NCBI GenBank assembly: GCA_003194525.1
Contig: NBIV01000017.1
Coordinates: 62,001-126,000 of the forward strand
Length of the DNA stretch: 64,000 nucleotides
Direction of reading: 5' to 3'
DNA from: Gracilariopsis chorda
Lineage: Eukaryota; Rhodophyta; Florideophyceae; Gracilariales; Gracilariaceae
This document shows positions 11,060-48,715 of this stretch, piece after piece. A program made the translations under genes and the position numbers. Position 1 is the stretch's first letter. The number at the start of each line of letters is the position of its first letter. The notes under the pieces were generated by a model. It was not told where the DNA came from. It saw only the letters and a program-made list of their open reading frames with translations, and ran no database searches.

Positions 11060-11077
11060 ACCATCCGTCAGGATGCG

Positions 11078-13177: not shown

Positions 13178-13473
13178 TACGGCCGTAAAAGTCGTTGTGG
13201 TATTGGCCTGTAGTCACAAGGTTCCCTGTCTCTTGTAGGTATCCTTCCTCAGGACACAAACAGCGTCCTCCAGGTCTTCCCATTGATCCACAGCATACAC
13301 CCGACTCGAGACCCCTGCCATTTCGTCCTCTGGTTTCTTTCTCTTCTCAGCTCCTGTGGTCTGCGAGTTTGATGGTTTGAGGCGGCAGTTATAAGAGGGA
13401 CGACACGCCTCTATGCGTCCCTCTGGTCGTTTTACTGCAGCGTCGGCACCGCAAGATCGCCTTGTCCATCCAG

Positions 13474-15594: not shown

Positions 15595-15720
15595 GCGGTC
15601 AGTGTTCCTTTCGAGCCAGTTGCGTCGACTAATAGTCCAATGGTAGAAGTCCTATGCGTAAGCCTCTTTCCTTAAGGTCCAAACGGCTGTTCCTGTAGGC
15701 TTCTAGGTCGCGAGACCAGT

Positions 15721-16246
15721 TGTAGTAGAATACTACGTCCTTTGGTCAACTGGGGTTGTAGTCTACTAGGGGGTAGTAGCGCCAGAGAGCTAACCACTGG
15801 GGTGACAATCCACTGGGTCTACTAGTGACGCGGGCACCAACTGGCAGCTATGCGCAATGGGCGGGCTCTATCTCAAGTCCCTACAGGTTGGGAGAATGGT
15901 AGCGATGGCTTGGAGGCCTTTGGAGTCCTACTGGCTGCATATGGCGGCAAGAAGACGGTGAGGGTGCTTGTCTTTACACTTCAGAGATCGGCGGCACTTG
16001 AGCCAGCTTTTATGGGTGGCAAGGCGCTCTGACCTCCGGACACTATCCTAACAAATTAAATAAAACTAGCTACATAATAAAACCTATGGCCACAGTGTCT
16101 TGGCACTCGCAATGTCTCCTCGTATCTCCTGCATAGGCACCCAGCTTGGCCATGTGGAATATTTCGGCCAGAAATGTTCCGACCTCTGCCAACCCAGCCC
16201 CATGATTACCTCACCACTGCATCTGCCCAATGGTCATTCTCCTACA
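15721..16246 (-). repeat. 5' LTR of the inserted Ty3/Gypsy element
   Basis: 526 bp, TGTA...TACA, the partner of the LTR at 5836-6361. Just inside it, 15706-15718 reads on the minus strand as TGGTCTCGCGACC, starting TGG two bases after the LTR, as expected for a tRNA primer binding site. Confidence 0.9.
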
Positions 16247-20311: not shown

Positions 20312-22870
20312 TAGAACGTAGCTTAAAAGGGTGAGTCTGAGATAGACGTTGTTACTTGACCACGACTTGGATGTCTTGCCGTTACTCTGAGCAGGCTGTT
20401 GAAATCGCCTGAAGTATAGAAAAAGTAGGACTTCTTTTCCAAACTGGTCCGTAAACTTGACATGAACAACTCAAGTATCCGTAGCTATATAAAGAAGAGA
20501 GAGATATAATTCTCCTGTAATCCGCAATTCATGTTAAGTGATTAGAACGTAACCTGTCACCAACTTTTGTCAACACACCCTCTCGTTCTAAACTACTCAT
20601 TCAATCATGATTCCGAATTTCTTGCAATGAAGTTTGTGAACCACACACGATAAGGCCTTTTTCATTAGGTCAGCAAAAATTACGTCCGTCAGCACATACT
20701 TCCAAGTCACATTCTCCTTCAGAACATTTTCACGTACAAAATGATAACACATTGAACATCGATATGCTTCGTTCACATTCTAACTCACCTGAATGTTCGT
20801 ACGAAAGAGCAAGCACACCTCGATTATCACCATAGATAACCATGGCATTCTGAATTCCAATTTCAAGCACGAATAAAAGACCACGCAGTTACAGACACTC
20901 TCGGACTACATATGCAATTGCCACATACTCTGCTTTTACTGTACCCTGTGCTACAATGGACTGCATCTCTCACATCTACTAGATAACAGCGCGAAAATTT
21001 AGAAATGCGAAACCACTAGTCAATTAGTCGGTCCAATAAATCACTGGCAAATTTTGCAGCACTGTACCCAGCGAGCAAACAGTTTTTCTTCTGATTCAAA
21101 AGTCCTACAAGATTTTGTTTTTCAGGTATCACAGCAGTCTCTGCGCGGGGTTCCAATGGTTACAACTGAACTTGTCAAGGAAGCTTGATAGATAGCCAGC
21201 TGCGAAGGCAATGTTAGCTCTACAAGTGTTACTCAAACGCTGAAGCAGTCCGACAAGCTCACGATAGGGCTCATCAGCAAGTCTTTCGTCCTTTTATTCA
21301 GCCTGTAACTTAATACCTGGAACCATGGGATTCACAATGTCTGAAAAGTGTTCCATATAAAAACGAACGAGAGCATTTTCGAGTAATGGAGAATTATGGA
21401 CCTTAATCGATCCAACAACAAGGTCTTACAATGACAAAGCCCAGAAACTTGCTTTTATCTGTTTTTGCTCGATGTTGGACATGGTTGGACAGATTTTGTA
21501 GCTGAGCAGTTTTCCTTCACTTCTTCCCGGAATAATAACATCATCGATATACGCAACAAGCACCATAACAATCATGTCTTCATCCATGATCAGGTACAAA
21601 GATGGGTCACTGGAAGAGAGAGTAGAACCAAGGTTGACTTAAAGTGGATGTAAGAACTTTCGAAAAGCCCTTGAGGCTTAGTTATGGCCATAGATCGCCT
21701 GCTGTAAGCAATGTAAGAGATACTTACGACCTTGAACTTCAAATCTACGGGGTATCTCCATGTAAATGTCTTGGTCCAATGTACTGTACAGAAAAGCAGC
21801 CTTGATGTTTTACCTCATGAAAAACATACTTTGATATACAATGAGCTCCAAGACCATTCGGACTGTAGTATACTTCTCCACTGGTGCAAAAGTATCAGAA
21901 TATTATTCACTATATTGCTGCATGAATCCTTTTTCCACGAGGAGATCCCTATGCCTTTTCATACGTCCAGTCTTATCTAGCTTGCGATCTTAAAACCATC
22001 TACACGGAGTGGGGCGAGAACTGTGAGGTAGGTCAACAAGTTCTATGACTTTGTTTTGCTTAAGATTGTTCATCTCTCTTTTCATTGTATGCTACCACTG
22101 TTCTCATTCATTTCCCGAAATGGCTTCTTAGTAAGAGGACGGCAGATCCGAACCACTTTTTCCCATCAGACAGCGAAGTTGAATGGACAACATGGCCTCT
22201 GACGTGTATCTCTCTGGGGCACACCTACGTCTGCCGGATCTTCTTGATTCTGTTGCATAGTGAATGACCAGTTCAGGGTCAGCATTCCCAAATTCATCCA
22301 AGAAGTTAAGTTGCATTTGTTTACCTCTAACTTCAGCAGTATGAAATTTTTGCTTGCAGTAACAAATTCCTCATCATGTTCAGTATGATCGTTATCTTTA
22401 TTGAAGATATCTTTTTCATCTATGCCGAACAAATCTGAAATATTTGTCATCTCATCTGTCGGTGTCCTGTTTGCCCACCCAAGCCATGACTAATCAATCT
22501 GGATATCTCTAGATACAGAGAAAGTACAACTCTCTGGATAGAAGATTCGACAGGAGTTGCCTCTCTGGCATCCAACCAGTATACTTTTCCTCGCTCTTGG
22601 ACTGAACTGTCCTTCTTATTTTTCCTTCGGAACGTGAGCATAGGCTTGTGCACTAAACACCTTGATGTGGGAAATGTCAGGGCCAGTGTTGAACACTGTC
22701 TCATTGGGAGTACAATTCCCATGGGATGCTAACGTGTACGTAACATTCCTGAGGTAGTTTGCCGTATTTACCGCTCTAGGGGTCTTATAGTAGTATTGCA
22801 TGTAAATGTGGGTTTGCGCTTGGTTTTGAGGGGTGTCGGCAAGCGCTTGGTTCGGACGCAAAAAGTTGAA
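20312..22870 (-). mobile_element. Ty1/Copia LTR retrotransposon fossil
   Basis: Minus-strand Ty1/Copia remains. The integrase end is at about 22.45-22.86 kb (AVNTANYLRN, GNCTPNETVF, ISHIKVFSAQAYAHVPKE, all typical of the family). The RT region is at about 21.2-22.0 kb (with VAYIDDVIIPG), and the RNase H part follows down to about 20.6 kb. At 20562-20575 an LTR-like start (minus strand TGTTGACAAAAGTTGG) follows a purine-rich tract, and a TATA-like box lies inside it near 20485. Gag and the 5' end are missing. It is old and heavily broken, with many breaks. Its 3' LTR side abuts the piggyBac-like element. Confidence 0.75.
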
Positions 22871-23770
22871 CGAGTGGTGGAATTGCTGTATGTACGTTTT
22901 TCATTCCTTCAGTGGATGACGAAGCGCTGTGCGCCGGTTATGAAACAAACGCTTGAGCTAAAAAAACCTGGCTAAATATTATAGAATGCTTGGTTCGGCT
23001 TAAAACCAAGCGCATACATCAAAAAATTAGGATTTGACATCGCCGTTTGCGCTTGGTTTTAGTCATATATGGCACGTGCCGCGTGCATGTCGTGTAAGTA
23101 GCGTAGTTGGGCGCATATTTAAAGGTTTAGCGCGCCAATACAGGGTGCCCCAGCGCTTGGTTTTAGCCATGATTTGTCAGAGCCTTGTAGGAAGGTCCTG
23201 AAAGTGCGCGCGCGCGCATATGTGCGTGTCGGAGGCTTTGGAAGAATGGTTTCTGAGCTGGTTTCGCAAGGTTTGGTCGCATGCTCCATGCGCTTGGTTT
23301 TAGCCAGCTTTTCGCAGACCAAGCACGCGGGATGTTTTGTGGCTTATTTGTAGAATGTGGGAAAGCGCTTGGTTTTGGACTGGCTTGCAGAAACCAAGCA
23401 ACACGTCAATATTTTGCACATTGTACAAATGTACGAAAGCGCTTGGTTTTGGACACATTTGCCCAAAGCAAACATTTCGGGCATGTTTACGCACATTGTG
23501 CAAATGATCGAAAGCGCTTGGTTTTGGGCACATTCACCCAACCTAGCAGTGCGGGGGTTTTTTCGCACATTGTAGAAATATGCGAAAGCGCTTGGTTTTA
23601 GGCCGTTTAGGTGCGAGACCAAGCAAAGCGTGGACTTTTTTGCACATTGTACAAGACTGCAAAAGTGCTTGGTTTTTGCAACATTTGCTATAACCATGCA
23701 ATGCAGGCATGTTAACGCATATTGTGCAAAAGGGCGAAAGCGCTTGGTTTTGAAGAGATTTGTGGAAACC
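22810..23770 (+). repeat. Tandem-like repeat with GCGCTTGGTTTT core
   Basis: About a dozen copies of GCGCTTGGTTTT or a close variant, for example near 22814, 22843, 23048, 23153, 23289, 23365, 23433, 23512, 23587, 23661 and 23740. In the right-hand part the spacing is about 70-80 bp, and each unit also carries an inverted AAACCAAGC-type block and a TGTACAAAT-like block. It is therefore a divergent satellite whose unit can fold on itself. Short ORFs across it are by-products of the repeat. Confidence 0.75.
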
Positions 23771-25020
23771 AAGGAATGCGTTTTTTAAATGTCTGACAAA
23801 TGTTTAGGGGTTTGTAGTACTGGTCATATTTGGCCAAACGAAGAATTGCTGGCATGTTTACGGACATGGAACAAATGAGACGAAGCAGGCTTTTATTAGG
23901 GAGCCTCCGGGAAAGAATGAAGAGCGTTGATATTAAAAATTAGGGATTCCAAATCTAGCGGTTTATATTTTGGTGTCCTTAGCATTAAGAAAGGTTTTAT
24001 GTTATTGTAAGAACCTCCATATTACACTTTAGGGTTTTTTAATGTAAGGGTGTTTACGGGAATATATTAGCAGTAGGAAATGTTATATATTATTGTATTC
24101 CCTTGATATGGCAATGTTAGGAGGTTTTAGTTGTTTTAGGTGCAGTTGGAGAAAAACAGGAGAGGTACAAAATTTTTGTATGGAGGTACCGTGGGGGGGT
24201 TAAAACTGATAAGAATGTTTTCCGTATTAGGGGTTTTAGGGAGCAGGGATGTCGTTTTAAAGGAATAGCGCTACAGGGTGTGAGGTTTGTATATTTGTTC
24301 GCTCGGCAAGGTTTTAGCCGCTTCCGTCCTGGTAAGCTGCACTTTTCATGATTATGGATGTGTCAGAGTATTAAAGGTTGCACTTTGAATAATGAAAATT
24401 GCAAGATGTAAAAATATTGTGTATATGGCCTAGGTCTCTAGACGTAGAAATAGGTGATTAGAACGTCTTAGGGGTTTTTGTAAACGTTATTTTTCGTTTT
24501 GGTGTGTTTCGGTGATTTGTGTTCTGTGGAGGGGAGTGTGAATGTTTTTAAAAAAACTGTGATTGGCCGTACACTTAAGAAATGCAAGTTGTACTCAATT
24601 TTTGTATTTAAGGGTTTTGTTTTAGGGGCGTTTTTGCGATTGGGTCTAGGCGTTTTCTAGGGGGTGTATTGGTATTAGGGGTTTTACTTCTAGACACTTT
24701 GGGGGGTTACACTTAGATTCAGAGGTTTTATTTTATTAGTGTTTTAAGAAGTTTAAGGGGTTGCAGAATGTTAACAGAAACAGAATTGTCTTGCATATCA
24801 TGTGCTGTTGTGAAGGGGTTTTTTCGACTTTAGGGGGTCGGCGTTTTGTGCTGCAGAAGTGTGCAGCGGTATGCAGGCAAGTTTTGTGTTAGGGGTTTTT
24901 AATTGGAATGCTTTGTTGTGTACCGCTGTAGGCGGTGTGCATTAGGTAATAGTGCTGTGGTAAGTTTAAAAGATAGTGGCGTGGCTATGGGAATACCGAA
25001 CTCGGAGACTTTGGGGTGTT
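23771..25020 (+). repeat. AT-rich DNA with telomere-like G-rich motifs
   Basis: No gene is seen in this stretch. The plus strand is studded with TTAGGGG-TTTT-like motifs (near 24005, 24050, 24228, 24468, 24620, 24677, 24890 and 25018), always with the G-rich strand on plus. They are scattered and degenerate rather than perfect tandem telomere repeats. Similar motifs recur near 31270, 36040, 36850 and 36910. Confidence 0.5.
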
Positions 25021-25039
25021 TTAGGGTCCCTCGACCTCT

Positions 25040-25190
25040 GCGGCGATGTACGTCAGGAAGTTTTCCTGTTGTACATGAACGTAGTAGTCGCTCGACCACT
25101 GCAGCAAAAAAATAGTAATTTTTTTGGAGGGTAGTGGTCGAGCAACCACCCTGTGAATGTACGACAGGACTTTTTCCTGTCGTACATGCA
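25040..25190 (+). repeat. Left copies of the 112-bp palindromic repeat
   Basis: Two hairpins of the TGTACGACAGGA...TCCTGTCGTACA type (start 25046 and 25157, spacing 111) joined by a block with TAGTCGCTCGACCACTGCAG, then CAAAAAAATAGTAATTTTTTT, then GTGGTCGAGCAACCAC. The order of blocks is the same as in the 8-unit array at 34.8-35.7 kb, so the two sites are direct repeats on either side of a roughly 9.6-kb gene block. Confidence 0.8.
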
Positions 25191-25361
25191 TAATACAGAT
25201 AAGAATACAGTAGAAGAAAGCGGAAGGTGTTTTTCGTTTTGGTCGCACATGCGCGTTTCTCAACGTGTGAGGATGTGTGGGGGGTTTTTATACGTAACGA
25301 ATAGAAACATGTGAAGCTTATGGCCACAAATTTATTGTTATCATCATGGTGTCACGGAAAG

Positions 25362-28300
25362 CTATACAAGATCAGTTGTAGATTTGTACGAAGTGATGAG
25401 GCGTATAAGGTTGGGAACGGCCCTGCGGTCTGTTGTCGTCAACCAGGAGTGGAAAAGTTGGTCTTGTTGCTGTGCTTTAGTGGATTCGGATGTACTGCTC
25501 GTAGAAATATTGTTGAACTGAGAGTTGCGTTCTTCGTCAAAGAGGTTGAGTGCAATGATGTTGTGCATGTCTGGGTCATTGCGCCAGAGAAGCCATGGAA
25601 TCTGGGGCAGTGGGATAAACTCACATGCCCGAGTACCATATGTTTTGAGATCTGAATGGGTCTTGAGTCCCTTGCAGTATCCCATATGGCACTTGTAGCA
25701 GGTCTTGGGTTGGTTCTTGTTGTGTGGGCACTCAACCGCGTGGTGGGAGTCCGAGAAGCATCGATAGCATCGAATGGATGCATAGGAGCATACATGGTTT
25801 TCCTTGGTTACGGGAGTTTGAGCTTGGATAAGACACGGAACGCATGAAGAGTGGAGACGGCGTGCTATCTCCTGAATGTGGCGCACAATACGAGTGGGGG
25901 GAATGGAGTTGATGCGATAAAAAAAGAAAGCGGAAATGTTAGACTGAAGCGGGCTGGTGTGCCGCTCTGAAGAAGAGATAGAAGTGATGAAGGGCGGCGA
26001 AGACGAGAGGAGGTTGTTGTTTAGGCGTTTGACTGAATTGGCGGCTGCGGACGCCGAAGGGAGTGGTTGTAGCGATGGGAGAGAACCATTGTATGGCGGC
26101 ATCTGAAGGTTTGAGCTCGGCTCCGGTAGGATGAAGGGTGACATGTCAAGAGAGGCGGTACCTGTGGAGGCTATATAGGTGTCTGATTTGGAGGGGAGGG
26201 TGTGGGTTTTGCAGGCTGTGACGGTGTTTTTAGGGTAGAAGTGTTTTTAGTAGGTGCGGTTGGAAACGGGTTGGAAGTTGCGGAGTTTTTTTTCGCAAAC
26301 GTCACAGTTCACAGCGTCTTCGGTGAATAAGCAAACGCCTGGTTCGGTTCCATCAATGTGGGCGTAAAGGGCGTTACGGCGGCACACGAGCGTCAGTTCC
26401 ATCCACGTCTTCACTTGGTTCCAGAGGTCTGTGGCAAGCGAGTCGACATAAGAACGGGCGATGTCGTTGGGGTTTTGGTTGTTTGTAGAGCAAAGAAGAT
26501 CTTGTATCATTTTGAAGTATGGCATTGAGTACATGGTGATGCAGCGCGCATTTCGGCCGTCACGACCCGCTCTGCCGGCCTGCTGGGCAAGGTCCGCCAG
26601 ACTGGCACATCCTCCAAAAATTAGCACTAGCCGAACGTTTGGAGTGTCGAGTCCTGTTCCAAATGCGGAAGTGCAAGTCATGAAAATAACGGTTTGGGTT
26701 ACGGCGGCGGATGGCGGAACGGAGAAGCGATGGAGCCAGTCGTCGTGTGTTTTATCCTTTTCGTGGTCGGATAAGCCGGCATGATAGAAGAGGCAAATGA
26801 AAGATGTGGAAGGGAACTGGTGAGATAATGTTCCTTGTACGTATTGTTGAATGACGCGGTGTAGTTGTTCTGTAGCTGAGCGTGTGAGTGTGAATAGGAT
26901 GATGCAGACCAAGGATTCAGTACTTGCGGTGAGCAATGTTGAGACTTGTTGTTGGAAGTACGGGACGCCTGTCTGAAGCAGATCTTGGAACAAGCTTTGA
27001 TAGGTACCTGCGGCAGTACAAATTCGAGGAGCTTTTACGCTTGGGGAAGCGTCGTACACGGAGCAGCGGATATTGTTACGGGCAGTGGAAGTGGTATACA
27101 GGTAAGCTGTTGGTATTGAAAGCTGTGATAGCAGGCGTGGACGATCGCGGGGCGGCACGGTGGCACTGAGCAGTACACGGGGTATATGGGGGGGTACGAT
27201 GGAAAGCGCATTGTGGATGTGTGCAAGGGATGGGCAAAAGTGTTGCCATAACAGAAATAAATGCACTTCATCCACCACGATGCGGGCCAGTTTTTGTTTG
27301 TGCAACAAGCGTTGAAGCAGGGAGTTGAAAGAGGCGGAGTCAAGCACTTCGACTGACAATATATAGACATCCGCAAATGTTTCCGTGCCGCCATTAGTGT
27401 GCGGGGATGTGCTGCTCTGAAGCTGAAAGGCTGCCGCACGTTGTTCGTACTCCGTACGGAGGGCTTTGAGAGGAACGATAATGATGAAGGAATATGAGCC
27501 CTTCTCCATGTACATCGGGAGCAGTACAGACAATGTTATTCCGGAGGCGGTCGGAGTGAGCATAAGCATGTTTCCCCGCTTTTCAAACACGGCCACCGTA
27601 ACGGTAAACTGCGTAGGTGATTTAAACACTGAGGAGCCATTGGAAAGCATTTGTCGGAGTGCGTTGAGGAACGTGCCGATTCTGTGTTCGTAATTGAGCG
27701 GTGGGGGTGTATGGAGCGATGCACCACCTCTTGGGAGCTCGGATGGGGTTGGGCGGCTGTGGAGTAGGGAAGATGAGCGGGCCAGGGGTGCAAACAAGTC
27801 GTTGGGGGTTTGTAAGGGCGGTGCAGAGGTGAAATAGGTTGTGATGCGGGATTGGGGCGCTCGGCGGGAGGGGTGGTGCTCTGTTGTTGAGGCGTGTCAC
27901 GGGAAGAGCGCTTCTTTGCAGCGTGTTTGCTCAAATTGAGTAGTGAGTGCCATTTGGTGGACCATTCTTTGTACTTGCTGAGTTCGGTGTGTCGCATTCC
28001 ACTGACGTCGTGTGGGGTGCGTGCGTAGATGAGCTCCGCAGTGTGTGCCGTGTGCCCAGCTTGATTGTGGGCGGTGGAGATGAATTCTTCAAGGATGGCC
28101 TTGGAGAGCGTGTTGTCAATGTCGTTTGCGGTGGTGGAGGAAATGAGAGCGGTGATTCCTACTGTGAAATTGCGGTAGTCGGCAAAGGTGAGTTTAAACC
28201 CAGCGTCGAACAGAGTGGAGCTGATGATTCGGCAAATGTTTCGAGCGTCCAGGGGCATGCCGTGGGTTGAGAACAACATAAGCCAGTGTGCCTGTTTATG

Positions 28301-30600
28301 GGTTTCGCCATGTATAGCCGAAACGAACCAGGTTTCGAGCGGGCGAACGAGCTTCAGGTAAGTGAGAAGAAGTTCAGCTGTCTTTGGATCTGGGAAGCGT
28401 GGAATTGGGCGAGCGTCTCCTTTCGCGTTTTGAGTTTTGAGGTAACGCGTAATGAGAACGGGTTGAGAGTCAAGAAGTATGAGGCAGCGTTGGTGGAACA
28501 AATCGTTTTGCAGACGATACGACTCAATCTCGGTTCCGCGAGCTCGGGAGCCGGAGGCAAAGTGGAGAACGACGAGGAGCCGCTCCTGGGCTTTTTGTGC
28601 ATATGCGAGCCAGCGGGTGAGAGCAGATGTGTAGAAGTGGATACCAGCAATAAGAACTGTGGGGGTATCGTTGGGTGGTGGGGAGGGAGCTTGGAGCGAA
28701 TGGTGCGATGTGTTTCTGGATGGGTTCTTTAGGCATTGCAGTACTTACTGCAAGCAGGTGTGTAGAAAAGAGCCATTGTGCGGGTGTTGGAGGAAGGAGA
28801 AGCCAGGGTTTTTGTTTGATGGTTGGTCTTTTAGTGCGTGGATGTGGCTTGTGAATGCAGGGGGGAAGGGAGATCCCAATAGCCGATCATCAATGATGAT
28901 TTCTTTAATTTCGGCATGGAGCTTTTTGACAATAGAACCGAGCGCGGGCAGACCCAAGTGAATGTCGCGAACGATGCCGCAGTGTGGGTGCATATCGCAG
29001 TCGACGAACGATATGTTGATGCTTTCTTTAGTGGCGATGTTCATAGCAAAGCTGAGAGTGTTGCGGATGAAAGAAAAAGCATTGTTTGATTGCACGTCAA
29101 CTGACAATTCCACTTGCTGCATCTCGGAAGTAAGCTGATGAGGAGTTTTTCCTTGCTGCTTGGTGAGGTTATGCACGTGATGGATAGCGCATGCTGCGAC
29201 CCCGTATTGGAGAGCGGCGAGCAGATCGGTGAGCTCGTTGGCACTAGCATAGCGGTAGCGCTCGTCGTGTTGGTTGATGGCATCTTCGTTGTTGTGAACC
29301 AGCACAGAAGGGGCCGCAATGAAGTTGCGCACAGTGAGTGTATGCGTAGATGCATACGGGGGGAGCGTCTGCAGAAGCTGGGCAGTGAGCGCGCTGTGTA
29401 GGAGTTGAGGTTTTAGATTAACGCTGTGGAGGTAGGCCGTAGTGTTTTGCGCTTGTGAAACCAGGTTGACGTCATGTTCGTTGCCTTTTTTTGTGAATAG
29501 CAAGAGACGGGCAATATCGGAGGCGTAGCGTTTGATCGTGTCCTGCGAGACGCTGCGGAAGTTGCTGTCGGAACGTTGGTTGAGCTTTTGGAGAAAAAAT
29601 GGCGGAATGGTGCACATGAGAAATGGAACTTTGGTGAGGTACATGAAAACATCGTTGGTCATCGCAGCCATTGCATCGATGTCGCTTGCACATGTTGGAT
29701 TTGTGAGTATGGTTGCGTCCTTGAGGCCGACAGAAACAGACTGGAGTATGATGTCTAGCTTGGTACACGCAATGAAGAAGTTGGGTTTTTGTTGTGCTTG
29801 TGGTTGCAGATGCAGATGATTGGTTTGCATATGTGAGGTGCTTAAGCTTTTGAAGAAGTTGTTCACTGCTTATTCGGTTTTGTGTTCCGGTTGCAGTATG
29901 TGTCGGTGTCTGGAGTTTGTGTTCGGGTTGGGGGGTTGCATGGGCTTTGGCAGTATCGGTGCCGGGGGTTGGGACTGGAGGTTATGGGGTAGCAGGGGTT
30001 GCTGCATAGTGTTGACCGTTTGGATAGGCAGTTGAAGGTGTTTGCTTATGGTTCCAACGGGGGAGGCGGAGCTCACCGCAAACAGCAGACGGCGAGGGCC
30101 GCCGAATATGGTTTGCACTTTTACGGTGCTTTGCTTCGATGTTTGTTGTATTGGCCAAGAAACCGAATGCGCGTGATTGGAATGTGTGTTTGTGATGTGC
30201 TCATGGAGACGCTAAAGGTCAATGTAGCAGGAGGTGCACTGCGCGCAGCGGTAGCCGTTAAATATTTGCAGCCCAGCTAGTGGACGTAGAACAGCCACGT
30301 TTTGGCTCGGCGCTTCCGGATCATACGAATTCCATAGTGGGGGGAGGTTGTTCTGCTTAAGCATTTCGGTTCTGCCGGACCAAATGATGTCGGATGCTTT
30401 TCGAGCCTCTTCCTGGGGGAGGAAGTGCGCCTTTCGGAGATGATAGCGCACGGCACGTCACGAGGGGATGCCAGATTCACAGTTGAGGCACAGGACGAAG
30501 AAGCACATGGAGTGAATGGCAAGGTTAATAACGGTGTCGAGTGGTTTGGTGAAGAAGGGAGATGCATTTCGTGCTTCATCCGCGATCTACCCGGCTGATG
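25362..30600 (-). pseudogene. Giant OrsD zinc-finger / tyrosine-recombinase-like / RecQ-like helicase gene
   Basis: A minus-strand coding region of about 1,740 codons with the architecture known from fungal 'OrsD-RecQ' proteins. OrsD-type double zinc finger at about 30.1-30.6 kb (CLNC...YHLRKAH, CAQC...RLHEHITNTH, then VQTIFGGPRRLLFAV). Middle part with RYASDIARLLLFTKK, GSRARGTEIESYRLQN, FADYRNFTVGI and QAGHTAHTAELIYAR, which resembles a degenerate tyrosine-recombinase core. RecQ-like helicase at about 26.3-27.8 kb with DEVH box, LLSATVPP, FGTGLDTPNVRL and QQAGRAGRDGR. C-terminal Cys-rich part with a zinc knuckle (CYRCFSDSHHAVEC). The Walker A site reads TPTASGITL, lacking the usual GKS/T. 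In-frame stops lie at 30458, 30212, 29870, 28745 and 26247, and the frame changes near 27.6-27.8 kb. It is therefore a broken copy. Function (replicating or integrating the element) is inference. Confidence 0.8.
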
Positions 30601-31277
30601 TTGAGATTATGGCGGTAGCGTTGGGATTGGGACGGTTGGATTGAGGTTTGTTCGCGTTTGGAGCCGGACGAGGCTGGATATAGTCCAGTCCTATGGAGTG
30701 GTTGTGCAAATAAGAGGTTGTCCATATTGGTATGCTCGCAGAAGGGAAGGAGATAAAAAGAAAGGCAGAGCGAGAGATAGAGATGGGTTTTGGCGTGCAG
30801 TTGAGTTGTAGACGTTTTTGAGGGTAGGGGAAGAGATGGGAAGGGGTTTATTAGGGGCTGGTTGGTGGGCTTTTTGTAGTGATGATTGTGAGGGGGGCTT
30901 GCTCAAAGGCGCTGCAATGTGGGTTTTTTGGCGCGCTCATACAGTGTCGGAAGTATGAGCTCGCATAGGCTATGGGACCAATACTCGCCAAACATGTACA
31001 CCATGAGGTGCAGAGGGAAAACGGGGCTGGCGCGGCTGGAGATATGTGGGCGTTCGTTTAGGGTCACACATGACGTCATACACAAACTGTAATTGGGTTT
31101 TTGGTAAGGTGGGAGGTGTGCTGTGTGTGGGGTGATACACATGCCCATGCGCACAGTGGGAATGAGCTGGTGCACACCACAAAACGGCACAGGATTACGT
31201 AATACGTTCTTACGCACATGCAAAGGAGCAGGTTTGAGGAACTTGTTTATGAGTTTTCACCCCTAGAGAGAGGGTGT
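30601..31277 (-). other. Spacer between the helicase gene and the SET domain
   Basis: About 680 bp with only short ORFs. One minus-strand ORF (30903-31223, 106 codons) has CGVHQLIPTVRMGMC and two Cys-containing segments but no recognised family. A pyrimidine-rich minus-strand run at 30750-30900 looks non-coding. Promoter or leader of the helicase gene could lie here. Confidence 0.3.
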
Positions 31278-31898
31278 TTAGGGGTTTGTATTGTGTTTTG
31301 TAGAAGTCGAAGAATGTGTCTGGGGCGAAGGGGTACCAAGATTATTGGTCCAATCGTAAGAAGTACCGTAGTCGATGAAGAGTTCTTCTCCGCGTGCTAT
31401 ACGGCGGGTAGCTTTGATTGTTATCAGAGTGTAAGGCGTGAGGTGCTGACGTGTTTTAAGCGCAGATATCGCAGAACGATCAACGTAGACATTGGCCGTT
31501 CGTTTGGGTTTGAAATCATCACGAACGGGCTGCGCGTCAGGATCCAACTGGAGGTACCTTGGGTCATTGATGAGTCCTTCTACGCAAAAGGGAGCTGGCG
31601 AGATCCAAACGCTTGGTATTTTCTTGTCCTGGTTCAGTCCGATGAGGGAGGTGAATTCCGGAGCCCTGAGCTCCATTTGCATACAATACGTGCGGAAATC
31701 CTGTGGGGTAACGCCCATCAAGCCGGAGCCGTATGTTTTGTGGATTTCGGTTCGCTGGGACATGTCGTGATATACCAACGTGCCGTAAAATTGGCAGACT
31801 GTCTCGTCTTTTGCGAACGTACAGCCTGCAAAAACGCCAACCCCAGCAGACGGGTGCACAATGGTTGATTCAGCCACAATAAGGCGTATCGTTGAAGC
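31278..31898 (-). CDS. SET-domain segment (protein lysine methyltransferase)
   Basis: Has the SET hallmarks in order: GVGVFAGCTFAKDETV with FYGTLV (start of the SET fold), LINDPRY with ANVYVDR (position of the usual NHS-PN motif), and RRIARGEELFIDYGTSYDW (GEEL..DYG catalytic end). SET proteins methylate lysines, mostly on histones. No pre-SET or post-SET Cys clusters are seen. The conserved fold starts within about 20 codons of the amber codon that ends the methyltransferase, and the first ATG lies inside the fold, which argues for translation as an extension of the methyltransferase. Confidence 0.8.
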   Translation of the reverse strand, partial: ASTIRLIVAESTIVHPSAGVGVFAGCTFAKDETVCQFYGTLVYHDMSQRTEIHKTYGSGLMGVTPQDFRTYCMQMELRAPEFTSLIGLNQDKKIPSVWISPAPFCVEGLINDPRYLQLDPDAQPVRDDFKPKRTANVYVDRSAISALKTRQHLTPYTLITIKATRRIARGEELFIDYGTSYDWTNNLGTPSPQTHSSTSTKHNTNP

Positions 31899-34433
31899 CT
31901 AATGAGTGCGGAGCTCGTTCACGCCCATTAGGTTGAAGAGTCCTTGGTACTTCTCGGGCCATTGGGAGAAGTCCATGTGAAGGCCGGTGTTGACGAAGTC
32001 CTGTGCGCGCCATTTAGACGCACAACACGAAACTACGTGCTCTGCCAGCGTTTGGTATTGAGGGAACTTTGGCACGGCTGCCCAAGTCCGGGAGGGACCC
32101 ATATATCCCTTAACGTAGTTGTGCACCGCGTTGGCTGCATCCACCAAACCTTGCGTGACGGTTACGATGGCAACGTTTTCGGCGATGAGCCTTGAGAAGT
32201 GTTTCAGTGCGTGATGTCTGGCCTGGTGGAAGCATGCTTCGTCCTTCTTGCAACCGACAAATCTGCGTGTTTCGCCTTTCTTAAAAGACATGCAGGCGAG
32301 CGCTGTCGAGAAGGTGCCGCCAAACAGGTCAAGAACCGTATCAACTGGTTGAGAGAACATGGCAATGAGCTCCATGTTGAGTCGAATTGGCTTCTGTTCT
32401 GGACGAACAGCCTCACACTTCACATCTCCACTGTCTGTGTAGCGGGACCACATGAGACGCTCATTCACATCGACGGCCGGAACACGGTCGATGACGTTCT
32501 TGTACGCAGTGACCGTGAACGGGACGTAACGGAAGTTGGTGTAGTTCACCATTTTGTCCTTTTGCGCCCGAGTGGGGCCTGTTTTGACGCCATGCACCGC
32601 GTATTGGGTGATGGGTATCAACTCTCCAGAAGCGCGGCCCGGCGACACGGTGTTGTTACCCGGTGCACGGATCATGTGCAATGGGCAGTGGTCCACGCGG
32701 ACCATTGGGGCAACGGTACTATTGGCTTCCCTGCGATCAACGCTGTTCAACAGCTTCCGCCAACGCGGGAACTGCTCAAGCGAGCAGAAAATGAAGAATT
32801 GGCCACCAGCACGTAACAAGCGACTCATGGTTATTGTAACCCTTTTCATGTCGGCGACGGTGAGGGTGTCGTAGTCGCTGTTCGGCCTGCCACCCATAGA
32901 GCGAATAGCGTAAGGGGGGTCTGTCATTACCAACTGGGCCTGGGAGCATGGCACGGAGTCCGGGGCACGCAATTTGTCGTGCACATCCACGAGGTCGTCA
33001 AAGCCGCAGCAATACATTGCGTAATGCTTCATCATATGCTCCTGCACCAATTCCAACGCATTTAGCACGTGTACGTCGGCCAGCTGATCTGGGGGAATGA
33101 TGTCCGCCTGCTCCTTGCGGTAGGGAAGATCGCGCTCCATTTTACTCTGTGGGTCCGGGCCTAGCGAGGAGGGGGGTTGGGGCCTTTTGGGGTTGCTGCC
33201 CGTCGTTCCACCGCTGCTACTGCTCCTGGTGGGTTCTTGTACCAAGTCTATGACGTCCACTGGTATGGCGGAAGTGGCGGGACGCCCAAAAGCAGTAGTG
33301 GCAGATTTGGCACTGGCGTACGCGTTGTGGTGTTGGGTGTTGACCTCACGAATGGGTTTCCGAAGCTGCGCAGTCAGCTTAGCGAACCGTTGGGGGAACT
33401 AACGCTGCCGGGAATGCTGCGGTTCGATTGCCTTACGGTTGTCGTCTGGAAGCAACTCTAGCAGCAACTGCCATGGGCACAAGTTCGCCTCGTACAGTCG
33501 GGGATGTGAGACGACGCTGACCACATCGCTAAGGAACTCCTCACTCAGTGCGGGGAGGCTTGAATCCACCACGTCCGATTGTGTGAACGCTTTGGAGTCC
33601 ACTTGGTATGGGTCAGTGCATGATTTAAGATCCCGTATGAGAGTTTTAAGCTGCGTGAGTGGAGAGAAGCCATCTTCACGATTGCCTATTACTTCAAACC
33701 CAAAGCTGTCCGGATCGAAAATGATATACGGGTACACCATGCTCCCAACGTCAGTGAATCTGAGGAAGGTGGCAAAGCAATCCCACCAGCGAGTCACCTG
33801 TTGCACACCGTACGCAACTCGGCTGTAGGTGAACGCGTCGAAGTTTTTAAGGGAGCTCAGCGTCATCTGAGCACCCGGAATGGGTGGTCCTCGCTTTCGC
33901 TTTCCAGAAAAAGCTATGCGCTGGCCAGACAACTGTACGAACATCGTCATGTAAATCAACACCTCGAATCGCAAAGCGCGTTCTGTTGGAACATCGGTGC
34001 GTTTGTTCTTGCGCTTATTAATGCCCGTGACGGGCGATTTGATCAAGTCGCTGAGCAAGAAGCGAATTGTGAAGTTTATACCACGTGCGTTGCATATGCG
34101 GTAGTAGTCCTTCACCCTTGACTCATTTTCGGTGTCTGTTTGGTCGATCACTTTCGCAATTTGGTGCGTTTGTTGGGACGCATTGCGAGTGGTATTCGAA
34201 TTGGACAACAACGCGAGGCGTAGTTCTTCATTCCCGAAAGTAGACACGTTCGGTGTGTTGGTTGCTTGGGAGCAAAGCTCTGGCGCAGCAGTGGAGTTCC
34301 TTTGCACCCGAATTGCGTGATCGACGAGAGTGGCGTACTTGGCGTTCCTATGACGATCGCCTGGAGTTCGTTCACGCGCATACTCATCGCGTAGCTCCAA
34401 CAGAGCCAAGATGGTCTTTGTGTAGTTGGGCAT
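31278..34433 (-). CDS. Single frame: unknown domain, beta-class DNA adenine methyltransferase, SET domain, split by two amber codons
   Basis: One minus-strand reading frame runs from an ATG at 34433 to a TAA at 31278 (1,051 codons) and is interrupted only by two TAG codons, at 33399-33401 and 31899-31901. The first segment (344 codons) is of unknown family. The second holds an N6-adenine methyltransferase, the third a SET domain. Both TAGs fall between domains. The SET segment has no ATG before its conserved start GVGVFAG, so it needs either read-through or an initiation at a non-ATG codon, or the frame was once a fusion now broken. No other stop or shift occurs in 3.1 kb. TAG is used as a normal terminator elsewhere in the window. 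Whether this is programmed read-through or two point mutations cannot be decided here. Confidence 0.75.
31899..33398 (-). CDS. Beta-class N6-adenine DNA methyltransferase segment
   Basis: Contains the catalytic motif DPPYAI (residues about 114-119 counted from 33260), followed by SRLLRAGGQFFIFCS (motif V region), and, near the C-terminus, IRLNMELIAMFSQ and VLDLFGGTFSTALAC (AdoMet-binding motifs X and I) and RFVGCKKDE (motif II). The order catalytic motif first, AdoMet motif last marks a beta-class amino-methyltransferase of the bacterial/phage type, which methylates adenine N6 or cytosine N4. The glycine loop is FGGTFS rather than FxGxG. All core motifs are present, so it may be active. The first ATG in this segment encodes the Met of MERDLPYRKE; upstream of it the frame is open back to the amber codon at 33399. 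Confidence 0.85.
   Translation of the reverse strand, partial: FPQRFAKLTAQLRKPIREVNTQHHNAYASAKSATTAFGRPATSAIPVDVIDLVQEPTRSSSSGGTTGSNPKRPQPPSSLGPDPQSKMERDLPYRKEQADIIPPDQLADVHVLNALELVQEHMMKHYAMYCCGFDDLVDVHDKLRAPDSVPCSQAQLVMTDPPYAIRSMGGRPNSDYDTLTVADMKRVTITMSRLLRAGGQFFIFCSLEQFPRWRKLLNSVDRREANSTVAPMVRVDHCPLHMIRAPGNNTVSPGRASGELIPITQYAVHGVKTGPTRAQKDKMVNYTNFRYVPFTVTAYKNVIDRVPAVDVNERLMWSRYTDSGDVKCEAVRPEQKPIRLNMELIAMFSQPVDTVLDLFGGTFSTALACMSFKKGETRRFVGCKKDEACFHQARHHALKHFSRLIAENVAIVTVTQGLVDAANAVHNYVKGYMGPSRTWAAVPKFPQYQTLAEHVVSCCASKWRAQDFVNTGLHMDFSQWPEKYQGLFNLMGVNELRTH
33399..34433 (-). CDS. Unknown N-terminal segment (344 aa) of the methyltransferase-SET frame
   Basis: Starts MPNYTKTILALLELRDEY at a clear ATG. 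It is rich in charged residues, then from about residue 150 shows a more structured part (FEVLIYMTMFVQLSGQRIAF, YGVQQVTRWWDCFATFLRF, YPYIIFDPDSFGFEV). No family is recognised. A basic stretch KRKNKRTDV-like (INKRKNKRTD) and GKRKRGPP could be nuclear signals. It ends with an amber codon and the same frame stays open for 46 more codons before the methyltransferase segment's first candidate start. Confidence 0.6.
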   Translation of the reverse strand: MPNYTKTILALLELRDEYARERTPGDRHRNAKYATLVDHAIRVQRNSTAAPELCSQATNTPNVSTFGNEELRLALLSNSNTTRNASQQTHQIAKVIDQTDTENESRVKDYYRICNARGINFTIRFLLSDLIKSPVTGINKRKNKRTDVPTERALRFEVLIYMTMFVQLSGQRIAFSGKRKRGPPIPGAQMTLSSLKNFDAFTYSRVAYGVQQVTRWWDCFATFLRFTDVGSMVYPYIIFDPDSFGFEVIGNREDGFSPLTQLKTLIRDLKSCTDPYQVDSKAFTQSDVVDSSLPALSEEFLSDVVSVVSHPRLYEANLCPWQLLLELLPDDNRKAIEPQHSRQR

Positions 34434-34794
34434 AATGAAAATTGCGTTTCACAGCCGGTTGAATGAGCACGTGGTATGACAATCTTCACGTTTATATACG
34501 TGAGAAATTGGTGAGCAAGCGGTTGTCTTATTACCAATGAGGTTGGCAAGCGTGAAAGCAAGCAGCTCAAATATCCGTAAACGGAACGGTCGCTGGTGCG
34601 TAATACAGAATCGTCTGGCAACGGTTGTGAAGTACACCAATGTTCAAAAGAGGAGGAAAGGAGGGAAAGATTGGGAAGCGTAGGGAAACGGAACGTGACA
34701 CAATCGCTTAGGGGAAAGGAAGGTGAAGACGGAGGCTTAGGAGTTTGAACGTCAGGAACACATCCTGCGCGCCGACGGCAGCTGGGTAATAAGG

Positions 34795-35690
34795 CGGTTT
34801 TTCGGCCACTAGTGGTCGAGCGACCAATGCAGCTATGTACCGCAGGCAACTGTCCTGTCGTACATGGCGTTGGTGGTCGCTCGACCACTGTAGGCTAAAA
34901 AATTGTAATTTCTTGAAGCGCCAGTTGGCGAGCGACCACTGCGCGCATGTACGACAGGACTTTTTCCTATCGTACATGGCGTTGGTGGTCGCTCGACCAC
35001 TGCAGGCTAAGAAATTGTAATTTTTTGGAACGCCAGTGGTCGAGCGACCACTGCGCGCATGTACGACAGGACTTTTTCCTGTCGTACATGGCGGTGGTGG
35101 TCGCTCGACCACTACATGCTAAAAAATTGTAACTTTTTGCAGCGCCAGTGATCAAGCGACCACTGTGCGCATGTACGACAGGACGTTTTCCTGTCTTACA
35201 TGGCGGTGGTGGTCGCTCGACCACTGCAGGCTAAAAAATTGTAATTTTTTGGAACGCCAGTGGTCGAGCGAACACTGCGCGAATGTACGACAGGAAAACG
35301 TCCTGTGGTACATGGCTGTGGTGGTCGCTCAACCACTGCAAGCAAAAAAAATTGTAAGTTTTTGAAGCGCCAGTGGTCGAGCGGCCACTGCGCGAATGTA
35401 CGACAGGACTTTTTCCTGTCGTACGTGGCGGCGGTGGTCGCTCGACCACTGCAGTCTAAAAATTTGTAATTTTTTGGAGCGCCAATGGTCGAGCGACCAC
35501 AACGCGCATGTACGACAGGAAGAAGTCATGTCGTACATGGCGGCGGTGGTCGCTCGACCACTGCAAGCCAAAAAATTGTAATTTTTTGAAGCGCCAGTGA
35601 TCGAGCGACCAGTGCGGGCATGTGCGATAGGAACAATTGCCGTCCTACAAGCGCGCAGCGGTCGCTTATTCACGGATCATTATAACTTGT
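34795..35690 (+). repeat. Array of eight 112-bp palindromic repeats
   Basis: Hairpins ATGTACGACAGGA...TCCTGTCGTACAT start at 34835, 34947, 35059, 35171, 35283, 35396, 35508 and 35620, a 112-bp period. Each unit has two palindromes: the TGTACGACAGGA hairpin with a 5-base loop and GTGGTCGCTCGACCAC-like arms on each side of TAAAAAATTGTAATTTTTT. The outer units are the most diverged. Nearly the whole unit can fold, so it could form cruciforms or serve as an origin or recombinase-binding site. Short ORFs in both directions here are shadows of the repeat. Confidence 0.9.
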
Positions 35691-36262
35691 ATGTAGTGGG
35701 GACCTTTAGTGGTTAAGCGAGTACTTTGAAATGAGTTCCATCGGTTGGGCATTGTTGTGCGAGGCTGTTTTACCTGTTTCAAAAACTTAAAGTTCCCAAC
35801 AGCGTGTGGTAGCGTTTTGGGGAGCGTGTTGTGTTTGCTAGCGCGTCGAACGTCTCGCTGTTCTCAATTAACCTCCTCGCACGCGTTTACAAAAATTCCA
35901 AATACAAAGGTGTGCTTTGTCGGCGTCGAGGTATGTTAATAAAGCATCTGTGGGGGAGTATAGCCCCCGCGCTTGTTGTTCGTGGCTTTTTCAGTTTTCG
36001 CAGTCGTGGGGTGTCAGCGGCAACCCAAGGGGTGTTATAGGGGTTTATTAGGGTTATAACTTAAACATAAGCAGCTCATGGGAGCTTTGGTTGCCAAAAA
36101 GGCTGTACCACTATACCTGCCATAGGAAAGATTTGTAGAGGTTTAAGAATAGTGTAGGGCTTTTATTTGTGTGGGTGTTATTCTTCGTAGCTGTACGTAA
36201 AGCGCTGCTACGCCAAAAATTGGGTTGTATGGAGAACGGGTTCTGGTGGGTTTTTACGGTTT
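35691..36262. other. Gap with no supported gene
   Basis: No convincing coding region. Telomere-like G-rich motifs (ATAGGGGTTTATTAGGG, near 36036) occur here, as on the other side of the cassette. Confidence 0.3.
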
Positions 36263-37530
36263 TTAGTGTGGGGCATGGGCCTGCCCCCCAACGGTTCTAC
36301 GCTGTTGTTTTTTTTTCATCCTGGCAACAAGTGCTCGTGTTTTCAGCATACACGCCTCCCATTCGCCCCGTAGGTCTTCGTCCATTGTTTTCTTCACGAG
36401 ATCATTTCCTCCCCGAATGAGCAATGACATACTACCATCCGTTGCATGTGCAGAGGTTGTAGATATACGACGGGGAAGTATGTTGATTGGGTTTTCTTTG
36501 CGGTAGGGTACAGGAGAAGGAGCGTGTTGTTTTGGAAGCAGTTGTGGCGGTTGGTGCAATTGAACAGCGTTAGTAGCAGGAGAAGGGTGGCTATCATTGG
36601 GCTTGTGCAGAGCTCTCCAAGTACGAGGAAGCAAAATGGTAGTGAGGGCCCGTTTCAACCCCTGTAAAGTCGCTCCCTTTGACAGCGTCTGTCACCGCGT
36701 TGAGTACAACAGGGTCTTTAAGGATGGTGCGTAGTGTTTTGTTGTTAATATTGGATGTGGGGATGTGCTGTGTGAGCTGTGTACGGTTACGTTGAAGTTG
36801 TCGCCTCCCCTCATGGAAACCATCTCGCTTTGAAGCGGTTTTTGGTTTTAGGGGTTCACCTCGCTGATGTACGGTGTGCTGGGCGTTGAAAGCTTCTGGA
36901 CGTCTAGGGGTTTTTGTATGTGGGACACTTGGATGGGTCGTTCCGGTGGGTTGCTTCAGGGGCTGTTGAGCCGAGGCTGTGAACATGTTGCATGGTACAG
37001 GTGCCTGTCCGTTTTCCTCGAATGTGTGCATGAGAGCTTCCATACGGTGCCGAATGCAATCGGCGTAGTGCGTGAAGGTGAATTTGGTGTGCCATAGGTT
37101 GAAGTGCTTTTGCACGTCCATTTCGGAACCGTTTAGAAACGTTGAGATTTGTTCAGAAATGATCTCGATGTGGTAGGTTGTGAAGAACCCACACTCGAGG
37201 CCTTGCTGGATACTGCGTCGAAGGTGGTGAGTGGTGACGAGTGAAGATAGGGGGCGGAAGGATACGACGTTCCGTCCTGGGTACGACGCGGTTAGGTAAT
37301 GAACGATGTTTTCAGAGAGTGGAGCATGAGGAGAGTTGTTGGCCGACATGCTTTCGACACAGAACATGGTGGCTCTGCATTGTTTCAATTGTTGTTTGTG
37401 CGATCGTTTTAGCATATGAGGGGCACGCTCTAGCCTTTCAAGAAGGAGCGACAGGTTGGCAAACGCAACTAGCGTCCAATGATTGTGCCCACACAACATC
37501 ACAATGGACAGTTTCGACCGTAACATACGG
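36263..37530 (-). CDS. Unknown minus-strand protein(s) beside the cassette
   Basis: One frame (36594-37568) of up to 324 codons with GHNHWTLVAFANLSLLLERL near the start, then RNVVSFRPLSSLVTTHHLRR and CGFFTTYHIEIISEQISTF, then a long polar Pro/Thr-rich part. A second frame (36263-36658) follows with a charged C-terminus (NDLVKKTMDEDLRGEWEACM). They may be one gene with a shift near 36.6 kb or two genes. No family is recognised. The first in-frame ATG is about 15 codons inside the long frame, and the right edge meets the GC-rich retroelement at about 37.5 kb, so the true start may have been lost. Same strand and similar composition as the 25-34.4 kb genes suggest that it belongs to the same element. 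Confidence 0.45.
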
Positions 37531-46950: not shown

Positions 46951-47059
46951 CGCCTTGGCAGATGCATCAAAAGCGCGGCTCTGTACTCGCTTGGTGCAAA
47001 GGTTGCTTCATTTGTTCGTTTCCAACAATAATCGCTCGTCTCCCTTACCACATGCCGCG

Positions 47060-48505
47060 ATGGCTGAAGAAAACACACATGAGGAGCTCTTTTATGAGAA
47101 ATTTCCATACGAAATTCGCTTCTTGCTCTTAGGAAAGAACCGTCGCAAGGTTCTGATGACTCGTGATGGCGGGGAATGGGATCTACCTGTCGTGGAATAC
47201 CAATCGAAATCAGGTAGAAACTTGGCTACTCGATGTTGTCATGACATGGGAAAGGCGTTCAGTGGCGAATGTGAAGTTCGTTTTGCCGCTGTGATTGAGC
47301 TTTTGGGTAAATGGTTGGTCTGGAGTCGGAAGAAGAAGAAGAAGCGCGCACACGCAATGTTGGTTCTAGCTGAGTGTGTCTCTCATGAAGACGTGGAGAA
47401 TCTAGTATTACCCCATGACTCTGAATGGAAGAACTCGAGTTTTGTGTCGTCCATACTCAGTGCCTACAAAGAAAACATTCCGTTGCGTTCGCTTTTCGCG
47501 TTGGTTGCCGGTGCTATGGCACCAAGCACCGAACGTCTCAGTTCTTTTAAAGATCCACGTTATAAGTTTGGATGGTATCGAAAGGCTGCCAGCCTTCTAA
47601 CATCTACCGCCGTTGCTGACGGCGCAAAGCATATTGGTACTGTCTCGCAAGTCCAGGTTTCAGAAACGTCGACAGTGCTGCGAACCGAATCTTCCCTGGG
47701 ATATTACTATCTTAAATCACCCACTCATGGGTGTGAGGAGACTTCTATTACGCACAAAGTCGCAGAGTTGCTTCCTTTAGTCTGTCCAGAGGTGTTGAAT
47801 ATATGTACATCTCTGAATTGTTTCGTCACTCGAGGACTTGGACTACCCATCAAACAGACGGAATACCGCGTGATTGTACGCAAACTGGGATATCTTCATT
47901 TTGAGTCATTGTCGCATATCGAGAAGCTGAGGAGTTGCGGATGCCCTGTTCGAGATCTAGATAAGCTGTCAAAGAAGATCGACGTTTGGGCGGAGGGGAG
48001 GGAATTTACTCGAGGCGATCCGATTGCAGAGCAGCAAATGCGAGAGCTCAAACCTCTCCTAAAGAGAATGTGTGCACAACTTGCGTCTCTGGACATTCCG
48101 CTAACTCTTATTCACGGTGACGTAGCGCGTTCCAATTCAGCAAGAACTCATACACAGGAGACAGACGCTCTTTTGTTTGACTGGGAGTTTGCGTGCATTT
48201 CCCACCCGCTTTTTGACTTTCACCGGATCGCTGATGAAAGCAAGGGCTCCATAATGATTGATGAGTACCTGATAAAATGGTTTCCACTCGAACAGTTGGA
48301 GGAAGCCCGAAAGGCGTATGAGATTGGAGTGCATCTTGGGTATTTTGTGAAAGTGTGGGCTCTTTCAGACCGACTTGAAGAATCTGCTCCTCAACTTGTT
48401 TCGCCCCTGGCTTTCTGGGCACGTGAACTGTTAAGAGATAGATACTGGGCACTTGTCTCGCGTATAGCTGATATAGCTGGATCAGCGGCGGGGGAGGGCT
48501 CGTAG
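47060..48505 (+). CDS. Phosphotransferase of the aminoglycoside/choline kinase (APH) fold
   Basis: Intact 481-residue gene. The C-terminal half has the kinase-like signature LIHGDVARSN (His and Asp at about residues 352 and 354) and LLFDWEFACISHPLFDFHRI (metal-binding Asp at about 374), typical of the APH/choline-kinase fold, which phosphorylates a small molecule with ATP. The N-terminal 150 residues (FLLLGKNRRKVLMTRDGGEW, DLPVV) look like a separate alpha/beta domain somewhat like NUDIX folds, found before APH domains in some protists and fungi; that resemblance is weak. I chose the ATG at 47060 (MAEENTHEELF) over the upstream ATG at 46955 because homology-like sequence begins just after it. 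The 3' end is duplicated in tandem. Substrate unknown. Confidence 0.75.
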   Translation: MAEENTHEELFYEKFPYEIRFLLLGKNRRKVLMTRDGGEWDLPVVEYQSKSGRNLATRCCHDMGKAFSGECEVRFAAVIELLGKWLVWSRKKKKKRAHAMLVLAECVSHEDVENLVLPHDSEWKNSSFVSSILSAYKENIPLRSLFALVAGAMAPSTERLSSFKDPRYKFGWYRKAASLLTSTAVADGAKHIGTVSQVQVSETSTVLRTESSLGYYYLKSPTHGCEETSITHKVAELLPLVCPEVLNICTSLNCFVTRGLGLPIKQTEYRVIVRKLGYLHFESLSHIEKLRSCGCPVRDLDKLSKKIDVWAEGREFTRGDPIAEQQMRELKPLLKRMCAQLASLDIPLTLIHGDVARSNSARTHTQETDALLFDWEFACISHPLFDFHRIADESKGSIMIDEYLIKWFPLEQLEEARKAYEIGVHLGYFVKVWALSDRLEESAPQLVSPLAFWARELLRDRYWALVSRIADIAGSAAGEGS

Positions 48506-48715
48506 GGGTGACGAAAGGTGTATGAGATTGGAGTGCATCTTGGGTATTTTGTGAAAGTGTGGGCTCTTTCAGACCGACTTGAAGAATCTGCTCCTCAACT
48601 TGTTTCGCCCCTGGCTTTCTGGGCACGTGAACTGTTAAGAGATAGATACTGGGCACTTGTCTCGCGTATAGCTGATATAGCTGGATCAGCGGCGGGGGAG
48701 GGCTCGTAGGGGTGA
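48308..48715 (+). repeat. Tandem duplication of 204 bp at the 3' end of the kinase gene
   Basis: 48308-48511 and 48512-48715 are essentially identical. The unit contains the last 60-odd codons of the kinase, its TAG stop and about 10 bases of flank. The second copy lies after the stop, so the protein is unchanged. Identity this high suggests a recent duplication; 204 is a multiple of three. Confidence 0.9.

Follow-up and report, generated by a model that had tools for sequence, protein, structure and literature searches.

What does it mean that a red alga carries, in one reading frame, a DNA adenine-type methylase followed by a SET domain, with two amber (TAG) codons breaking the frame? The locus lies in a 64,000-nucleotide stretch of the Gracilariopsis chorda genome (GenBank assembly GCA_003194525.1, contig NBIV01000017.1, positions 62,001 to 126,000 of the forward strand), which was analysed in full and is called the window here. 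Our answer, which we consider highly probable, is that the window contains a decayed copy of a mobile element, that the fused gene (an N-terminal domain that we call D1, then the methylase, then SET) is an accessory gene of the transposon, and that the two TAGs are random damage.

The fused frame

Translation of window positions 31278-34433 on the minus strand gives 1052 codons, in which the only internal stops are TAG at 33399-33401 and TAG at 31899-31901, before a TAA at 31278-31280. The parts are thus 344 amino acids (aa), TAG, 499 aa, TAG, 206 aa and TAA:

33402..34433, minus strand: D1, N-terminal domain of the fused gene, with its ATG at 34433; no known family, but a homologous N-terminal region in uninterrupted fusions
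33399..33401, minus strand: first TAG (TCG in 7 of 8 other copies)
31902..33398, minus strand: methylase frame, 499 aa, with DPPY and DLFGGTFSTA; PF01555 at about 32220-32936
31899..31901, minus strand: second TAG (GAG in 8 of 8 other copies)
31281..31898, minus strand: SET frame, 206 aa; PF00856 at about 31365-31844
31278..31280, minus strand: TAA, the normal end of the fused gene, from translation and comparison of copies

In Pfam, the middle frame matches N6_N4_Mtase (PF01555, E = 2e-13) and the last frame matches SET (PF00856, E = 5.2e-8; 33.7 bits, cut-off 22.4); D1 matched no Pfam family. Methylases of the beta class have motif IV (DPPY) ahead of motif I (FxGT). In the window, DPPY is followed after about 200 aa by DLFGGTFSTA, and this order, together with PF01555, assigns the middle domain on sequence criteria to the beta-class N6-adenine-type methylases. 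Indeed, DpnA, MboIIA, RsrI and CcrM are among its best profile matches in PDB. No ATG lies near the beginning of the SET frame, whose longest open reading frame (ORF) with a start codon opens with GTG.

A previous reading of this DNA, made from the letters alone (the sequence-only reading), had described the frame of three parts with its two TAGs and final TAA, and the lack of an ATG belonging to SET; both descriptions held on re-translation and Pfam search. It had also put both TAGs at domain borders. That is correct for the second, which lies close upstream of the SET region, but not for the first, which cuts a conserved N-terminal stretch: in stop-free relatives, conserved D1 sequence spans its position.

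The two TAG codons in other copies

Searching the genome (91.3 Mb, 1081 contigs) with the methylase piece gave at least 94 matches, with 86 of 278 candidates scored. By identity to the window they form family A (about 70-97%), family B (about 44-49%) and family C (about 34-38%), and a small number of decayed places have 50-60%. We compared the window, codon by codon, with eight further copies of family A. The first TAG is TCG in seven of them and TAG only in a near-twin insertion on contig C152; the second is GAG in all eight. Apart from the final TAA and the first TAG where it is shared, 19 further internal stops (9 TAA, 7 TAG and 3 TGA), some of them common by descent, are scattered over seven of the eight copies. 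Single-base insertions or deletions occur in five, a 24-bp deletion in one, and about 60 end bases are missing from another; C152 has no such lesion. DPPY is kept in six of the nine sequences (the window and five others), changed in two and unmatched by the pattern in one.

We also asked how the nine family-A sequences depart from their commonest codons by single bases. The fractions that are synonymous, amino-acid changing and stop-creating are 0.276, 0.695 and 0.029, against 0.275, 0.686 and 0.039 expected without selection. By this measure family A decays freely at the neutral rate, and its stops need no special explanation. On the same comparison, the window copy is a broken relic from which the whole protein is no longer made, both of its TAGs being random damage.

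The sequence-only reading had proposed something different, namely that the TAGs are kept for programmed read-through, giving one-, two- and three-domain proteins. Such a scheme would suit the fact that both internal stops are TAG and the final one TAA, and that the second TAG adjoins the start of the SET region. We nevertheless find it scarcely credible: the stop is kept in one of eight other copies at the first position and in none at the second, the further stops in seven copies are of all three kinds, decay is neutral, the first TAG interrupts conserved sequence, and copies of 1060 and 1035 aa are free of stops. Many copies with stops at random places, which that reading had itself named as the observation that would speak against read-through, are what family A presents. 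For the window copy, the simpler explanation that it also offered is correct: a gene that was once fused has suffered chance mutations.

Uninterrupted fusions and their relatives

Family C contains a 1060-aa ORF, beginning with ATG and reading D1-methylase-SET, at loci L022 and L023; open frames of 1065 aa stand at four places, on contigs C53 (L022), C332 (L023), C241 and C745. Family B has a 1035-aa D1-methylase-SET ORF at L019, and two sequences from other data sets, P0001 and P0002, are likewise fused. This domain order is no product of chance, since it recurs without interruption in further copies and in sequences from other data sets.

A profile run against 5.8 billion proteins recovered 84 relatives. 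Both enzyme domains are spanned by 67 of these, 62 of which also span the D1 core; eight span the methylase only, eight SET only and one neither. The central claim of the sequence-only reading, that a DNA adenine-type methylase domain and a SET domain share one gene, is therefore borne out both by stop-free fusions in the same genome and by these 67 relatives. Five relatives have a named organism: Chondrus crispus, Gracilariopsis chorda (twice), Pyropia yezoensis, whose match is weak and covers SET only, and a Bacteroidota fragment from a metagenome-assembled genome. Four of the five are red-algal, which speaks against a fungal host, a possibility raised by OrsD and Plavaka; the G. chorda protein P0025, moreover, matches this genome over 324 of 324 residues at 100%. 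Among relatives with residues at the relevant positions, DPP[YFW] is present in 67 of 72, the SET GxG in 66 of 76 and the late SET tyrosine in 65 of 73. As to viral carriers, two loci in IMG/VR match over 40 residues at a single methylase motif.

Family C is carried by Plavaka transposons

The stop-free family-C genes lie within DNA transposons. Five family-C copies that we compared are about 99% identical or more where aligned and stand at different sites. Their ends are CGTCGGTGTT inverted repeats, and all three copies in which both ends could be read are flanked by 2-bp target duplications (CT, CA and AT). A complete copy, G000:C53:85235-97085, is 11,851 bp long and contains the fused gene and a 775-aa ORF on one strand, with a 1156-aa transposase frame, in which a Plavaka match lies, and a 252-aa ORF on the other. 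The Plavaka transposase domain (PF18759) is matched at L023 with E = 1.8e-21 (77.1 bits, cut-off 26.3); it has 114 matches in the genome, four of them below the cut-off, and none in 14 control genomes.

Plavaka elements are described as having terminal inverted repeats and 2- or 3-bp target duplications, with termini CATCA..TGATG in PlavakaB and TGT..ACA in PlavakaA, and with C(2)C and H(3-4)H motifs in the transposase (Kojima, 2025; PMC12730594). The family-C ends, CGTCG..CGACG, are those of neither PlavakaA nor PlavakaB. By transposase domain, inverted ends and duplications we assign family C to Plavaka, and claim membership in neither sub-lineage.

D1 is deleted at L025 and L024. The first of these retains a 590-aa ORF; the second is an internally deleted Plavaka copy with an open frame of 608 aa and a shortened SET match. 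Upstream of the fused gene, the Plavaka elements at L022-L026 also contain palindromes 43-47 bp in length.

The window copy belongs to a different, 14.7-kb element

The fused gene of the window lies in an element of another kind, whose parts are as follows:

22784..37509, minus strand: whole mobile element, family A, 14.7 kb; both end points are the same in G000:C152, with 97.7% identity inside and unrelated flanks
28745..29866, minus strand: second gene, broken piece from the recombinase-like region (N-terminal half); at L012 and L021 it shares a frame with the piece listed below it
27536..28501, minus strand: second gene, broken piece with the tyrosine-recombinase-like catalytic region; motifs found by eye
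26247..27797, minus strand: second gene, RecQ-type helicase part; PF00270 1.1e-12, PF00271 5.3e-10, BLM structures E = 2.6e-21
25362..26144, minus strand: conserved part beside the helicase, in the same frame in L013 and L028 and rich in Cys and His in L028, from comparison of copies
34811..35632, no strand: 112-bp tandem repeat of 7.3 units upstream of the fused gene, with related repeats at 25025-25188, from a repeat search
23354..23599, no strand: 74-bp tandem repeat near the other element end, from a repeat search

The end at 22783/22784 also occurs in L013 and L014. Because the flanks differ, C152 is ruled out as the other allele of the window locus. In the two family-A insertions compared, those of the window and C152, we found no terminal inverted or direct repeats and no target-site duplication.

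The second gene stands in longer frames at L012, L021, L027 and L028. It comprises an OrsD zinc finger (PF12013, 4.9e-8 in L021), the recombinase-like region, the RecQ helicase and then the cysteine-rich conserved piece. The recombinase-like region shows, by eye only, RGTE, KT, YRN, GH and Y in the motif order of tyrosine recombinases; it had no profile match in PDB, PHROGs, Pfam or NCBIfam.

The first TAG is common to two separate insertions, window 22784-37509 and G000:C152:11803-26528. Probably, then, an element that could no longer produce the full protein was nonetheless mobilised, presumably in trans. At L012:1642-1750, about 109 bp that match one family-A end adjoin, with no gap, the array of 112-bp repeats in the following copy, which looks like a head-to-tail joining of copies or an insertion of one next to another. 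A DEAD_2 helicase frame (PF06733, 7.2e-42) lies beside a family-B element at L020:8574-9998.

Association, selection and descent

To put the association with the two carriers in numbers, two genome match lists were merged, giving at least 146 listed methylase/SET places. A Plavaka place is found no more than 12 kb away from 69 of these, a recombinase-RecQ place from 31, and both kinds from two; such 12-kb neighbourhoods make up about 3.1% (Plavaka) and about 1.5% (recombinase-RecQ) of the genome. The distances to Plavaka places fall mainly near 1.4, 3.3 and 4.7 kb, and those to recombinase-RecQ places between 2.6 and 3.5 kb, as a fixed gene order would predict. Conversely, among the places listed, at least 68 of 113 Plavaka places and at least 32 of 52 recombinase-RecQ places have a methylase/SET place nearby. 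The fused gene rides in two unrelated transposon classes.

Selection was estimated between two Plavaka subfamilies (L022 and L039) over 793 codons, giving a nonsynonymous divergence (dN) of 0.18 and a synonymous divergence (dS) of 1.03. The dN/dS ratio is 0.09 in D1 (180 codons), 0.15 in the methylase (305), 0.25 in SET (110), 0.20 in the region after the methylase (95) and 0.31 in the linker (95). Judged by these substitution ratios, purifying selection between the two subfamilies is shown for all three domains. Among family-B copies dN/dS is 0.5 to 0.9, which fits decay.

In a tree of 71 rows, family A, family B, two Plavaka-type rows, P0001, P0002 and P0003 fall into one supported group of seven (100/100), inside which the two recombinase-type rows are a clade and the Plavaka-type rows with P0002 are another; the Chondrus row falls in a different group. 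From this topology the gene seems to be older than either family in this genome; one must suppose either two separate captures or its passage from one transposon class to another.

Observations against an accessory gene

Several observations weigh against reading D1-methylase-SET as an active accessory gene of transposons. First, 48 of the at least 146 listed places, L024 among them, are near neither transposon gene. This would suit a host chromatin gene beside which unrelated transposons happen to insert, there being no listed transposon gene within 12 kb of these places. However, near-identical copies at different sites have the gene between their element ends, and the twin insertions have both ends in common; we regard a host gene as improbable in the extreme.

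Second, dN/dS is close to 1 when the youngest copies of family C are compared, on 10 and 4 differences only. Third, the usual N-H-x-C motif of SET is missing: relatives have Asn in 66 of 74 and D as the next residue in 59 of 74, with H in none of the 74. The SET match at L022 is also barely above the cut-off (23.3 against 22.4 bits). Taken together, the absent motif and the borderline score suggest that the substrate or activity of this SET domain may differ. Because the N-H-x-C motif is absent, we prefer the name SET-domain protein, and lysine methylation is to be read as an inference from sequence.

Fourth, DPPY is lost from family B in all five copies read (L019, L020, L021, L027 and L028), which have DAPT, DAPA or DALT; this suggests that adenine methylation is not always needed. 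At L019 (DAPT) the 1035-aa frame is open yet DPPY is gone, and catalytic loss seems to have preceded the spread of this family-B subfamily. Finally, structure models of the fusion and of the recombinase-like protein reached a mean predicted local distance difference test score (pLDDT) of 43 and 28, too poor for use.

A possible role in marking chromatin

How might such a gene serve a transposon? As an accessory gene, the fusion could act on the chromatin of its own carrier. The methylase would add N6-methyl groups to adenines within or close to the transposon's DNA, the SET domain would methylate lysine on neighbouring histones, and D1 would do the targeting. As a result, a new copy would be kept transcribable or distinguished from host DNA. 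In this form, with self-marking that favours expression, the mechanism is tentative and in our estimate not far short of an even chance; enzyme activity, substrates and the direction of the effect are all putative. Marking in favour of expression is taken as the most likely direction because N6-methyladenine (6mA) in eukaryotes has been linked to permissive chromatin (PMC12695648); red-alga terms are absent from the text of that paper. A point against the proposal is that the same anatomy would suit self-restraint, or a part played in transposition.

Self-restraint would make the protein a silencing module: through it the element would put 6mA and repressive histone methylation on its own copies, and so limit its harm or exclude competitors. 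Anatomy and selection are equally compatible with this, and methylases borne by retrotransposons are, in the abstract that describes them, capable of de novo CG methylation (PMC5890265). Against it stands the link between 6mA and permissive chromatin in eukaryotes (PMC12695648), and we consider silencing unlikely.

The protein could instead act in transposition rather than on host silencing, by timing it through methylation of the ends or by protecting excised DNA. In bacterial transposons, adenine methylation times transposition, and the fused gene does accompany two unrelated transposition machineries. This would, however, leave the conserved SET domain without a function, and the five family-B copies that lack DPPY dispersed anyway, so that we hold a role in transposition to be slightly less likely still.

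A broader version of the chromatin-marking proposal is conceivable, and we offer it as a speculation that is less likely than not but worth stating: an old dual chromatin writer would have become a mobile cassette of two unrelated red-algal transposon classes, serving self-propagating chromatin marking by which the elements would govern their own epigenetic state. Because the adenine-methylase site of family B is lost while the long frame persists, its methylase would there perhaps be a DNA-binding guide for SET.

Relation to known systems

Transposons with DNA-methylation genes and transposons with SET genes are each known. Fungal DNA transposons, Plavaka included, carry TET/JBP genes (Kojima, 2025; PMC12730594), and as that account describes them they resemble the present case in that a gene for a DNA-methylation mark lies in DNA transposons and related genes are carried by several classes. 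They differ in that TET/JBP proteins are dioxygenases with 5-methylcytosine as substrate, whereas the present gene encodes an adenine-type methylase domain joined to SET, in a red alga, and one of its carriers is of the recombinase-RecQ type. The cytosine methylases of dinoflagellate and charophyte retrotransposons (PMC5890265) are likewise eukaryotic DNA methylases encoded by transposons, there in hundreds of copies, but they are C5-cytosine enzymes in retrotransposons, and the abstract mentions no SET domain. Phytophthora HarbingerS and MuDR (cited in PMC12730594) are, like Plavaka here, DNA transposons with a SET gene; the passage that cites them mentions no DNA methylase alongside.

Among solved structures, the nearest relatives of the methylase are the bacterial beta-class enzymes DpnA, CcrM and RsrI, which have the same motif order and PF01555; the fusion differs from them in adding D1, long linkers and a C-terminal SET. 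Cryptons are not known to have a terminal inverted repeat or a long target duplication, and the window element is likewise without inverted ends, and without a duplication in the two insertions seen. As described in PMC10799480, AcademH and KolobokH similarly place a helicase beside a transposition function; here the helicase is of RecQ type and accompanied by OrsD, the putative recombinase is without profile support, and there is an extra methylase-SET gene.

Among the papers listed in searches of the open-licence literature, none showed a methylase-SET fusion in a transposon; those papers set the scope of this statement. With both writer domains in one protein, two unrelated transposon classes and 67 two-domain relatives, a direct link between adenine and histone methylation would become testable in a seaweed, and the fusion is a concrete candidate for the way in which transposons of red algae handle chromatin.

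Other features of the window

The window holds further repeats and frames outside the 14.7-kb element. At 5836-16020, two 300-bp repeats, 94% identical and 9.9 kb apart, surround a chromodomain frame (8860-10230, minus strand) that has a sub-threshold integrase match; this is probably a Ty3-type chromovirus with long terminal repeats. Frames with reverse-transcriptase and weak endonuclease matches at 57824-60634 (plus strand) are probably a retrotransposon of the long interspersed nuclear element (LINE) type, broken in two. A frame with a PPDK_N domain at 51023-52135 (minus strand) is perhaps an exon of a host gene. Finally, an APH-type kinase frame lies at 46955-48715, its end overlapping an exact 204-bp tandem duplication at 48308-48715.

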